33,359 nt of DNA from an uncultured Lachnospiraceae bacterium. Its GTDB lineage: Bacteria; Bacillota; Clostridia; Lachnospirales; Lachnospiraceae. Under the pieces are notes generated by a model, which did no database searches, was not told where the DNA came from, and saw only the letters and a list, made by a program, of their open reading frames with translations. A program made the translations under genes and the position numbers. Location of the stretch: the NCBI GenBank assembly GCA_902785985.1, contig CADABA010000016.1, forward strand, positions 9,518 to 42,876, given 5' to 3'. Shown here piece after piece: positions 1-30,180 of the stretch (positions are counted from its first letter, which is position 1; the number at the start of each line of letters is the position of its first letter).

Positions 1-109
1 TGTGGCTTCAAAAATATGTTAGTACCGCTGCCAGTGCGAGCGAGCGGGAGCGTCCCGACGTGGAAATATTTATTCCGGGAGCCTTAAAGTAAAGGATGCG
101 GGAAGTTTT
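1..109 (-). repeat. Interspersed inverted-repeat element, copy A (cut by window edge)
   Basis: Read on the minus strand, this starts with AAAACTTCCCGCAT (96-109) and continues with a block (CTTTACTTTAAGGCTCCCGGA) that recurs almost exactly in the copy at 10236-10380. A small hairpin, CGGGA-GCG-TCCCG, lies further in. It sits just downstream of nrdG in the same orientation. No ORF is visible. The far end, if there is one, lies outside the window. Confidence 0.6.
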
Positions 110-133
110 CGTAACATACCATTGTGGCAGTTA

Positions 134-661: not shown

Positions 662-717
662 AGCCCCTCCCCCGCCGCATCCGCGGCTCTCACGACTCTT
701 CCTGTATTCTTCTTACG

Positions 718-845
718 AAAACTTCCCGCATTCGAAATCCCGATGGCACCCGGGAAACCCAGGGAAAGGCCGCCCTTTTCGGAGCTGGAACGCGAGGCGT
801 TCCCGAATCCCGGCTGCCGCCGAATAAATGCATGCGGGATGTTTT
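718..845 (-). repeat. MITE-like inverted-repeat element, copy B, within the nrdG leader
   Basis: The element is 128 bp and bounded by 14-bp terminal inverted repeats: AAAACTTCCCGCAT at 718-731 and ATGCGGGATGTTTT at 832-845, matching at 13 of 14 positions. Inside is the palindrome GGAACGC-GAG-GCGTTCC, which other copies share (19807-19826 and around 10280-10300). It lies between the nrdG start and its probable promoter, so it would be transcribed as 5' leader. No target-site duplication is obvious and it encodes no transposase. Confidence 0.65.
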
Positions 846-854
846 GGTCTTTCT

Positions 855-3438: not shown

Positions 3439-3525
3439 CCCTTTTCACGAAGATAACTGCTGCATCGCGAAAACAGATCTCTCCCTGATCTCTTAACCGC
3501 TGCACAGTAACACAGACTTCTTAAC

Positions 3526-3592
3526 AAAAGCCTCCCGCATCCAGACCATAAGGCTTCGGGAAGGGACCACACTGAAGCATGTGGGAAGTTTT
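3526..3592 (-). repeat. Short inverted-repeat element (67 bp), possible MATE-gene terminator
   Basis: The ends AAAAGCCTCCCGCAT (3526-3540) and ATGTGGGAAGTTTT (3579-3592) are variants of the terminal repeats of element B at 718-845. Within it, on the minus strand, AAGCCT pairs with AGGCTT followed by TTTG, so it could also end transcription of the MATE gene, whose stop is about 85 nt upstream. It looks like an internally deleted copy of the same family. Confidence 0.45.
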
Positions 3593-3677
3593 GGCTTCTT
3601 ATTGGCTCCTCAGCCGCTGCAAATTATTCCCGGGTCCGCGTGATGTGTAAAATGAAACAGGAACCTGTAACGATTTC

Positions 3678-5381
3678 TCAGATCCGTTCGGAGACATGTC
3701 TGTTCCTGAATCTGATGAAATATGTGAGCTCGAGCACACAGCATGTCATCCAGCCTACCGGATAACCGAATCCGACGACATAGGGCGTATAGGCGATCCT
3801 GCTGCCGATGAACAGATAAATCTGCCGGATCAGAACAAAACACAGAAGCATGCAGAACATCGGGACCCTGGATTCTCCTCTTCCCCTGAGCGCTCCGGCC
3901 AGAACATGGTTGACCGCATTGAACATCAGGAAGTACGTGTTCATGCGCAGAAAAAGCACGCCGTAATAAATGACCTCCTCATCGTTCGTGAAGAGCGCTG
4001 TCGCCTGCGGCGCGAGCACGATCAGGATCGTCGCGATCACCGCCGTCACTCCGACCGCCATCTGGATCGATCTTGCCGCTCCTTTATTGGCCCGCTCCGT
4101 TCTGCCCGCTCCTATATTCTGGCTGACAAAGGTCGTGGCCGCCTGGCTGAGCGAATTGATCGGCAGGAAAATGAAAGAATCCAGTTTGTTGTAAGCCCCC
4201 CATCCGGCCATGCACCCGGAGCCGAATCCGTTGATATAGGACTGCACGAACACGTTGGATACGGAAGTGATCACGGACTGAATTCCAGTCGGCAGACCGA
4301 TCCCGAAGATCATCTTAAGGATCGGAAGATCGATCTTAAGATCCTTAAGAGTCAGCTTATAGATATCTTCCGTTCTCAAAAGAAGCAGGAGAACAAGGAA
4401 CGCCGAGAGGAACTGTGAAATGATCGTTGCATAGGCCGCCCCCGCGATCCCCGCCTTCAGCACGATGACAAAAAAGAGATCCAGCACGGTGTTCAGGAGA
4501 CTCGTAAAAATAAGGAAGTACAGCGGCCTCTTTGTATCACCCACCGCTCTCAGAATACCGCTTCCCATATTGTAGAGGAGGAGTCCCAGTGCCCCTCCGA
4601 AGTAGATCTCCAGATAGACCTTCGCCTGCGGGAATACATCCTCCGGGGTCTGCATGAGCTTCAGCATGGCCGGGACGAGTACGAACCCTGCAAGCGTAAA
4701 GAAGATACCGAAAAGGATCGTGACCGCTATTGCAGTCTCCACAGTCCTGTGAAGTTCCTGCAGTTTGCGGGCTCCGAAATACCGGCTGATCACAACACCG
4801 CCGCCGATGGAGAAGCCGTTAAAGAAAAAGATCATGATATTGACGATCATAGTCGTCGAGCTGATCGCAGCCAGTGCCTCTGTTCCGACAAAATTACCGA
4901 CGACGATGGAATCCACCGTGTTGTACAGCATCTGGAAGACATTTCCGAAGAGGAGCGGGAGCGCGAATGCAGTCAGATGCCCGGCGATCGACCCCTCCGT
5001 CATATCCCGCACGGTCGACTTCTTCTGCATCTCCGCCTTTTCCGGTATCTCTGTCTCCTTTGAGATCTCTGCCGCCGGCATCTCTGTCTCCTTTGAGATC
5101 TCTCCCTTTTCCGGTATCTGTGCCCCCTTCGGGATTAACGCTTTCTCCGGCAGTTCTGTCGCCTTTGAGTTCTCTGCCCTCTCCGGCCTCTGTGCCCCCT
5201 TCGGCATTTCCACTTTCTCCGGCCGTTCTGTCTTCTCCGAGGGCGAAGTTCCATACTTTGAATCGCTGTTCCCGGATAACGATCCTGTTATTCCGGCTCC
5301 TTCGATGCCGAAATCATGATCCGTTTCCCCGTCTCTTTCGGCTGTTTGATTTTTATCCACTGTAGTTCTCTCAAAACGCAT
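3678..5381 (-). CDS. MATE family efflux transporter with repetitive N-terminal tail
   Basis: This 567-residue protein has a C-terminal body of about 445 residues typical of MATE/NorM-like exporters (DinF/MepA branch), which expel drugs or metabolites in exchange for Na+ or H+. Recognisable family segments include PLLFGNVFQMLYNTVDSIVV near the start of the body, GDTKRP in the middle and ALRGRGESRVP near the end. The first ~125 residues are unusual: hydrophilic, charged, and built of about six 12-residue repeats (PEKxExPKGAQx / PEKxEISKETEx). The ATG at 5381 is chosen over a TTG at 5390 because GGAGG (5391-5395) lies 9 nt upstream of the ATG but touches the TTG. Only 17 nt separate it from the helicase gene upstream, so the two are probably co-transcribed. 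Confidence 0.92.
   Translation of the reverse strand: MRFERTTVDKNQTAERDGETDHDFGIEGAGITGSLSGNSDSKYGTSPSEKTERPEKVEMPKGAQRPERAENSKATELPEKALIPKGAQIPEKGEISKETEMPAAEISKETEIPEKAEMQKKSTVRDMTEGSIAGHLTAFALPLLFGNVFQMLYNTVDSIVVGNFVGTEALAAISSTTMIVNIMIFFFNGFSIGGGVVISRYFGARKLQELHRTVETAIAVTILFGIFFTLAGFVLVPAMLKLMQTPEDVFPQAKVYLEIYFGGALGLLLYNMGSGILRAVGDTKRPLYFLIFTSLLNTVLDLFFVIVLKAGIAGAAYATIISQFLSAFLVLLLLLRTEDIYKLTLKDLKIDLPILKMIFGIGLPTGIQSVITSVSNVFVQSYINGFGSGCMAGWGAYNKLDSFIFLPINSLSQAATTFVSQNIGAGRTERANKGAARSIQMAVGVTAVIATILIVLAPQATALFTNDEEVIYYGVLFLRMNTYFLMFNAVNHVLAGALRGRGESRVPMFCMLLCFVLIRQIYLFIGSRIAYTPYVVGFGYPVGWMTCCVLELTYFIRFRNRHVSERI
5019..5222 (-). repeat. 36-bp in-frame tandem repeats encoding the MATE N-terminal tail
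   Basis: Successive units read PEKVEMPKGAQR, PERAENSKATEL, PEKALIPKGAQI, PEKGEISKETEM, PAAEISKETEI and PEKAEMQKK. Units alternate between a PKGAQ and an SKETE type, suggesting a 24-residue (72-bp) duplication built on an older 12-residue one. One unit is a residue short but stays in frame. Confidence 0.8.
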
Positions 5382-5398
5382 GACAAACAACCTCCAAA

Positions 5399-10226: not shown

Positions 10227-10235
10227 TCACTTACT

Positions 10236-10380
10236 AAAACTACTTCCCACATCCTTTACTTTAAGGCTCCCGGATTCAAGAACGCCTCAGCGTTCCTGCC
10301 GCGACGTGCGCGGCGGGTTTCACTTTGCGCATTCATCATAGATTTACATCATGAATATTCTGCGTCAGAGAGTAAAAAAT
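10236..10380 (+). repeat. Interspersed inverted-repeat element, copy C
   Basis: It begins AAAACTACTTCCCACAT (10236-10252), a variant of the element terminal repeat. It then shares the CTTTACTTTAAGGCTCCCGGA block with copy A. Next come the palindromes GAACGC-CTCA-GCGTTC and GCCGCG-ACGTG-CGCGGC. It ends with GCGCATTCAT...TTCTGCGTCAGAGA, which also ends copy D at 19804-19985. In both cases the poly-A/T tract of a terminator follows at once. Confidence 0.65.
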
Positions 10381-19803: not shown

Positions 19804-19985
19804 ATCAGGAACGCCTCGGCGTTCCTGCCGCGCCGCACAAGGTGCGAAGCACCTTTCTAATTATGCGGCTGCGATCCGCCGGAGGCTTTCATCTCTGACG
19901 CGGGTCTGTATCCCATACAAAAGAAAAGTTTCAATTTGCGCATTCATCTCATGATTGAAATCACGAGAATTCTGCGTCAGAGATT
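19804..19985 (+). repeat. Interspersed inverted-repeat element, copy D (longest)
   Basis: It begins with the perfect palindrome AGGAACGCC-TC-GGCGTTCCT (19807-19826). It continues through a module shared with copies E and F (GTGCGAAGCA, then CTGCGATCCGCCGGAGGC), and ends with GCGCATTCAT...TTCTGCGTCAGAGAT as in copy C. ATCTCTGACGC near 19889 and GCGTCAGAGAT near 19974 form a perfect 11-bp inverted repeat enclosing the right half. A degenerate trace of the terminal repeat (AACCTTCCTCATGC) precedes it near 19773. It fills the space between the galE stop and its terminator. Confidence 0.65.
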
Positions 19986-20069: not shown

Positions 20070-20160
20070 ATTCTTCAGCAGGAACACCCGCGTTCCTGCC
20101 GAACTGCACAGAGCGCAGAGCACCTTATCCGGCGGCTGCGGTCCGCCGCAGGCTTTCATC
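20070..20160 (+). repeat. Interspersed inverted-repeat element, copy E
   Basis: AGGAAC-ACCCGC-GTTCCT (20080-20097) matches the core palindrome of the family. It is followed by GCGCAGAGCACCTTATCCGG, and CTGCGG-TCCG-CCGCAG forms a second hairpin. It ends GGCTTTCATC like copy D and reaches the 3' end of the broken Nudix gene. Confidence 0.6.
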
Positions 20161-30088: not shown

Positions 30089-30180
30089 GAAACTCTCAGG
30101 CGTTCCTGCCATGCCGGGCGGAGTGCGCAGCATATTCATCTTGAATCGTCTGCAATCCGCCGAAGATTTCACTCCCTGTC
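30089..30180 (+). repeat. Interspersed inverted-repeat element, copy F (degenerate)
   Basis: AGGCGTTCCTGCC, then GTGCGCAGCA, then TCTGCAATCCGCCGAAGATTTCAC follow the same order and spacing as copy D. The left half of the core palindrome has decayed. It lies between the clostripain terminator and the prepilin peptidase gene. Confidence 0.5.

Follow-up and report, generated by a model that had tools for sequence, protein, structure and literature searches.

The window analyzed here, a 33,359-nucleotide stretch of the genome of an uncultured Lachnospiraceae bacterium (G000; contig C16, positions 9518–42876), belongs to an assembly of 3.88 Mb in 449 contigs with an estimated completeness of 78%. 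The initial annotation, made from the sequence alone, had described seven intergenic stretches that share modules, and both our reading of the window and genome searches bore this out. It had also treated all seven as one mosaic family. Instead, two families are superimposed: elements with terminal inverted repeats (TIRs; family A) make up copies 1–4 and hairpin modules (family B) copies 4–7, with copy 4 alone holding parts of both. Hairpin modules lie between the head and tail of a few family A copies, which explains why a single mosaic family was seen. No transposase domain was detected among the 20 large open reading frames (ORFs) of the window that were scanned, as the annotation had stated. 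Within the window, a MatE-family ORF (3678–5390, minus strand) contains repeats with a 36-bp period in its 5′ part (5006–5218).

Family A is a MITE with 17-bp TIRs (ACTnAAACTTCCCRCAT) and a length of ~212 bp when complete, whose head (ACTAAAACTTCCCACATCCTTTACTTTAAGGCTCCCGGA) and tail (TCCCGGTCGCCGCCCCATAAATACATGTGGGAAGTTTGAGT) are unlike each other. Copy 1 (1–112, minus strand), located by BLAST, TIR word search and alignment, extends from the head end to the middle of the core discussed below; its TIR at 96–112, identified by sequence reading and TIR word search, reads ACGAAAACTTCCCGCAT on the minus strand. The 5′ part of the tip core (positions 1–59 of 89 in the covariance model) fills positions 1–59 on the same strand and runs off the window edge after scoring 48 bits (E = 2e-7). 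The rest of this copy lies to the left of the window across eight N bases (C16:9510–9517); a delta module ends before these bases, and a TIR-like end lies at C16:9397. Copy 2 had been reported as a complete element at 718–845 with inverted ends matching at 13 of 14 positions. The match holds, but the true ends read ACTn...nAGT, so the element spans 715–848 (plus strand), and it is a 134-bp derivative with both TIRs in which a GGAACGC..GCGTTCC hairpin replaces the standard interior, whereas complete copies in relatives have the full ~212 bp. No target duplication is visible, with two of five bases matching. Copy 3 (3524–3595, plus strand), found in the paired-TIR scan, is a 72-bp deletion derivative with both TIRs; TTCTT flanks it on each side one base out of register, leaving two of five matches in strict register. 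Copy 4 begins with a MITE head (10233–10274, plus strand), consisting of a TIR with an inserted ACT followed by CCTTTACTTTAAGGCTCCCGGA, for which no tail end was seen.

Aligned copies resolve family B into hairpin modules, namely beta (GAACGCC..GGCGTTC plus GGTGCGAAGCACC), delta (TTTATCTCAGTGGG..CCCACTGAGATAAA), epsilon (TTTATTCTTCATCGCG..) and zeta (ATCTCTGACGC..GCGTCAGAGAT). Its share of the window comprises the rest of copy 4 (10275–10372) and copies 5–7. In copy 4, the MITE head is followed by a beta module (10275–10317, plus strand) with a ATTCAAGAACGCC..GCGTTCC hairpin and a CCGCG..CGCGGCGG hairpin, and then by a zeta module (CTCTGACGCAGAAT...; 10318–10372, minus strand) adjoining a T-run. 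Copy 5 (19804–19985) combines a beta module with a GGTGCGAAGCACCTT hairpin and a CTGCGATCCGCC block (19804–19893, plus strand) and a zeta module with paired ends CTCTGACGC/GCGTCAGAG behind a T-run (19889–19985, minus strand). Copies 6 (20070–20160) and 7 (30089–30180) are decayed beta modules on the plus strand. The first 20 kb of contigs C1–C10 (200 kb) contained 20 beta hairpins, 11 delta, seven epsilon and five zeta modules and 15 TIR words, compared to 0 for reversed controls; a separate count over six of these ten contigs gave 12 beta, seven delta, four epsilon, three zeta and two TIR. Neither TIRs nor target duplications of family B were seen by eye. A run of at least four T within the preceding eight bases was present at nine of 17 zeta copies, a position that suggests a target preference for terminators. 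Zeta modules behind T-runs were noted at window positions 19984 and 10372 (minus strand) and at L146, L160, L163, L169, L173, L174 and L176.

The modules recur genome-wide far above chance, as the description of an interspersed family had implied. The 13-mer TIR core AAACTTCCCRCAT occurs 104 times in the whole genome with at most one mismatch, compared to eight times for the reversed pattern, and whole-genome BLAST with four window copies matched at least 41, 51, 52 and six places, which are lower bounds, as 40 first-look candidates were scored per query. Paired-TIR elements, with both ends at most 450 bp apart, were collected from 618 kb of sequence comprising the window and 40 stretches less overlap, many of them picked for containing TIRs. 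Among the 27 elements, with 53–359 bp between TIR cores, the five bases outside ACT...AGT were duplicated exactly in 11 and at four or more positions in 15, while 2,000 shuffles of the right flanks gave a mean of 0.65 and a maximum of five exact duplications. The duplication extends to six bases in register in only one of the 27. Ten of the 11 exact duplications occur in a T-N5-A context, which fits equally well with strictness in the choice of target and with a duplication of 7 bp whose outer bases resemble the element ends. In relatives, 11 of 26 end pairs have 195–205 bp between TIR cores, corresponding to ~212 bp from ACT to AGT once the four further bases on each side are counted. BLAST with one copy found matches in its own genome and ten of 36 same-genus genomes, three of which (G027, G034 and G036) match only in or around the core, and in none of 24 genomes from other families of the order. 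Spacers compared between G000 and G035 are too diverged to show a clean empty site; one interior deletion between short repeats is apparent from L177:2277 and L238:4366–4585. Copies 1–3 of the window, like the head of copy 4, are members of a MITE family with TIRs and 5-bp target duplications. Two further repeats were recorded: a tandem array at L012:1582–1762, with units like CGGGAGCCTTCCAGGACCCTGACTGAGAAGCCTCAGAC, that grows from a MITE head module, and an intergenic repeat (GCAATTGCGAAAGTCTGTGCTTCATGGAAATTGT...) at L238:2524–2827, L275:568–723 and L216:825–928, which fills spacers of a relative that differ in sequence in the window species.

The transposase mobilizing the MITE is probably encoded elsewhere in the same bacterium. 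TIR pairs 0.45–6 kb apart enclosed no transposon among the loci examined before a lead came from G013, where a DDE transposase follows a TIR located close to the end of a contig. The protein was matched in nine of 41 genus genomes at E values up to 1e-20, the window genome among them. There, the copy (L357) is an insertion sequence (IS) of 1,574 bp with ends ACTAAAACTTCCCACAC and ACTAAAACTTCCCATAG at 585 and 2158, which differ from the 17-base TIR consensus by one and two mismatches; its 467-codon open frame matches the IS4-family model NF049925 of NCBIfam (E = 1.2e-159). This copy is without a target duplication, while in G019 the copy (L358) retains both ends and is flanked by TATTT, a 5-bp duplication equal in length to that of the MITE. 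No transposase match was found in the MITE-bearing genomes G005, G023 and G026 (completeness of 81%, 76% and 97%). IS and MITE have only ~17 bp in common. Judged from these sequences, the IS4-family transposase is the likely driver of the MITE. The annotation had offered a non-autonomous mobile element or a REP/BIME-like family and proposed to look for a transposase with similar ends. Such an IS exists in the same genome, and, together with TIRs and a duplication of fixed length, this autonomous relative with the same ends identifies the elements as MITEs; the REP/BIME part of the proposal did not stand, as discussed below. At L197:132–972, a repeated reading-frame pattern (ITPAYAGNT / GSPPHTRGT), a putative CRISPR array by its appearance, lies beside the IS4-family element.

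The MITE folds as one hairpin, with the 204 nt between the TIR cores reaching −88.3 kcal/mol (z = −9.1 relative to dinucleotide shuffles). Its tip is a core of ~90 nt, GGGACGCTYCCGCTCG-N-GCAGCGGTAC-stem-GTACCGGC-N-ACGCCC, with one-sided bulges and invariant unpaired bases. An exact pattern for the 5′ half matched 83 stretches of named genomes. These carriers include Eisenbergiella tayi DSM 26961, the complete genome of Lachnospiraceae bacterium CE91-St56, rumen and gut metagenome-assembled genomes (MAGs) mostly labelled Lachnospiraceae or Clostridia, one Hungatella MAG and one Quinella-labelled contig. On the latter (Quinella sp. 1Q5; L287), the core element is by eye nearly identical to those of Lachnospiraceae MAGs, with mis-binning and transfer as alternatives. 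The 3′ half, which lay outside the search pattern, is also conserved and has been lost in some copies. With a covariance model (R1) and ten candidates scored per genome, the core was found in at least 29 of 392 genomes of the order, representing 15 of 174 genera and one family, and in at least four of 398 genomes of the phylum, all within the same family. At L304, L315, L316 and L318, cores form inverted pairs 77–245 bp apart. A blastn search of plasmids and phages with a 204-bp stretch (L271:2817–3020) and a search of viral contigs with the core pattern yielded no match, and no protein adjoining the core was found at the examined loci.

In the core set first gathered by the exact 5′-half pattern, the pairs hardly vary, and three showed two-sided change compared to 2.9 after shuffling. 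After divergent members were added (alignment A3, 47 distinct sequences, fitted to the covariance model), compensated changes appeared at 12 of 16 pairs (7.2 shuffled) and in 77 cells (19.4 shuffled), a signal mostly lost in slid controls; the 22 pair types were not in excess of the 20.3 after shuffling. Neither the window nor the cores of 24 loci matched a family of Rfam 15 at the gathering score. The only sub-threshold matches over cores were to microRNA models, the best with E = 0.013 and 33 bits compared to a gathering score of 170. RNAalifold on mixed arms served as a guide only. The MITE is a long imperfect hairpin tipped by a covarying core that is present in many Lachnospiraceae genera, with arms, ends and duplication lengths that vary by lineage.

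This variation is evident in CE91-St56, where the core lies within a 238-bp element with ends GGGTGCAGATAAAA. These ends occur 91 times in that genome with at most one mismatch, compared to three times for the reversed control. A 9-bp duplication is exact in seven and matches at eight or nine of nine positions in ten of 19 rows, which represent 18 elements, one of them entered twice for its alternative left ends; three shuffles gave 0 or 1. As at least two end types with different duplication lengths carry the core, different transposases are implied. No IS with the CE91-St56 ends was found among 30 loci, in which the sole end pair 450–3000 bp apart (L393:1277–2979) consists of MITE-type ends. 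The arms diverge further. At six of 11 E. tayi loci and at L250 of CE91-St56, arms of 86–133 nt per side form near-perfect palindromes; the five other E. tayi loci were excluded for a lost 3′ half, N bases, a locus edge or failure to be matched by the script. Within a locus, these private arms are 94–100% complementary over 77–123 bp, while arms of different loci have no detectable similarity past the 12–25 bp beside the core. Of the changed cells in the 67 arm pairs of 14 CE91-St56 elements, 45 were compensated, at 17 pairs (shuffled mean 11.9), and 28 were uncompensated, including seven G.U and 11 A.C.

How such complementarity is maintained bears on the choice between explanations. Core and arms could form a functional non-coding RNA or a cis-regulatory leader, with selection on the RNA keeping the arms paired, and the covarying core with its bulges, invariant unpaired bases and lack of an Rfam match at threshold is what such an RNA would offer. 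We regard this as unlikely. Selection on a transcript should favor G.U, yet the 91 arms of all groups contain 88 G.U and 115 A.C mismatches, so RNA-level selection on the arms is unsupported; these pooled counts, from which five of 96 cores with arms shorter than 15 nt were dropped, are not phylogenetically independent. The same arms have 231 C.T and 71 A.G mismatches, an excess that probably stems from shared ancestry of a few positions. The orientation of cores relative to neighboring genes is also unbiased (23 ++, 22 −−, 18 +− and 12 −+ for 75 intergenic cores with both neighbors called), based on crude ORF calls that place eight of 95 cores inside frames, and the elements are flanked by target duplications. 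Our analysis instead points to DNA-level copying between arms as the main cause of their complementarity, and template switching would best account for the patterns. Errors of assembly might also be suspected behind the long private palindromes of E. tayi, given its draft genome and several repeat copies at contig ends in the window genome, but locus L250 has the same core and private-arm architecture in the complete CE91-St56 genome, which makes this explanation very improbable.

Two other explanations would change the classification of the elements. Elements of the REP/BIME type, mobilized by a REP-associated tyrosine (Y1) transposase, would be consistent with the high copy number, intergenic location, palindromes and the inverted core pairs at four loci. 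However, Y1_Tnp gave no match at E values up to 0.001 in the core-rich genomes G068, G340, G350, G363, G395 and G423, although other core-bearing genomes do have Y1 matches, and no core was found in 30 Y1 loci searched with flanks of up to 1.5 kb per side. Target duplications, in addition, fit a DDE enzyme. On the Y1 results, we rejected membership in a REP/BIME and RAYT system, to which we assign only a marginal chance. Somewhat less remote, but still improbable, is one BOX-like mosaic family with family A, beta, delta and zeta as parts of a single element. It draws on shared junctions and on the few copies with hairpin cargo between MITE head and tail, comprising delta and beta in L177:436–802, beta in L175:4971–5140 and another hairpin in L173:7574–7766. 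Against this, beta, delta, zeta and epsilon words are missing from all 11 complete MITEs of relatives, and paired-TIR elements in the 618 kb enclose few of them (beta, two of 37; delta, two of 49; zeta, 0 of 17; epsilon, 0 of 21; beta hairpin alone, seven of 92). Family B consists of interchangeable hairpin modules that sometimes are cargo between MITE head and tail and mostly lie outside TIR elements.

MITEs are normally recognized by their ends, while their insides are arbitrary. Passages of PMC3049150 define them as cross-mobilized by IS with similar TIRs. Our elements agree with MITEs in being short, multicopy and hairpin-forming, with TIRs, target duplications and a same-genome IS with matching ends, but differ in that the inside rather than the ends is conserved between lineages and that one core occurs with two unlike TIR and duplication types. 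Compared by architecture only, the BOX elements of pneumococci and S. suis, as described in passages of PMC3049150, likewise have a fixed head and tail and variable middle modules in some copies, whereas the middle modules here mostly stand alone and an IS partner was identified by its ends. REP/BIME elements with RAYT (PMC2817692 and PMC3733652) are similarly intergenic and of high copy number, with inverted pairs in some genomes; the elements studied here, in contrast, are at least 200 bp long, have target duplications and occur in several carriers without a Y1 match. A REP is described in the latter source as a 20–40-bp palindrome with a GTAG or CGTC tag, whereas CGTC, in alignments read by eye, precedes the core in certain arm types but in neither E. 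tayi nor CE91-St56. Template-switch hairpins, as presented in passages of PMC8794818, share perfect stems and multi-base compensated changes with our arms, which differ in being joined to a conserved mobile tip motif and, in E. tayi, reach 86–133 bp. Among the abstract openings and passages of open-access literature that were searched, none describes this element, and the searched passages of a MITE review (PMC10969869) are without mention of Clostrid- or Lachno- names, IS4 or chimeric elements.

Taken together, we favor, with a probability of about 0.8, an IS4-linked MITE with 5-bp duplications, a conserved tip core and template-switched arms, accompanied by a separate module family. In this scheme the IS4 transposase would act in trans, moving the MITE by cut-and-paste to targets of the form T-N5-A. 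Template switching during replication may repeatedly rewrite one arm from the other, which would keep complementarity, make arms private to a locus and could erase TIRs. The core might be kept because some factor reads the folded single strand, in which case it could be carried by unrelated transposon ends. A bolder and tentative idea, which we hold to be possible rather than probable, is a family-wide mobile palindrome whose heritable part is the folded tip, a core readable as a single strand, which travels with the ends of unrelated transposases (5-bp and 9-bp duplication types) and seeds or maintains private arms by template switching. If true, the hairpin tip and not the ends would define the mobile element, and a protein of the host or of the element would act on that tip.

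The repeats are genuine and, for the most part, ordinary: MITEs that have an IS4-family partner, interspersed with hairpin repeats of a second family. What stands out is the structured tip, which is conserved across a bacterial family despite the turnover of ends and arms. As this inside is conserved across genera and its surroundings change, something appears to select the hairpin tip. The core is a candidate structured motif, unrecognized by Rfam in the loci tested, and the private near-perfect palindromes are natural loci for studying how bacteria create, repair and tolerate long palindromes.
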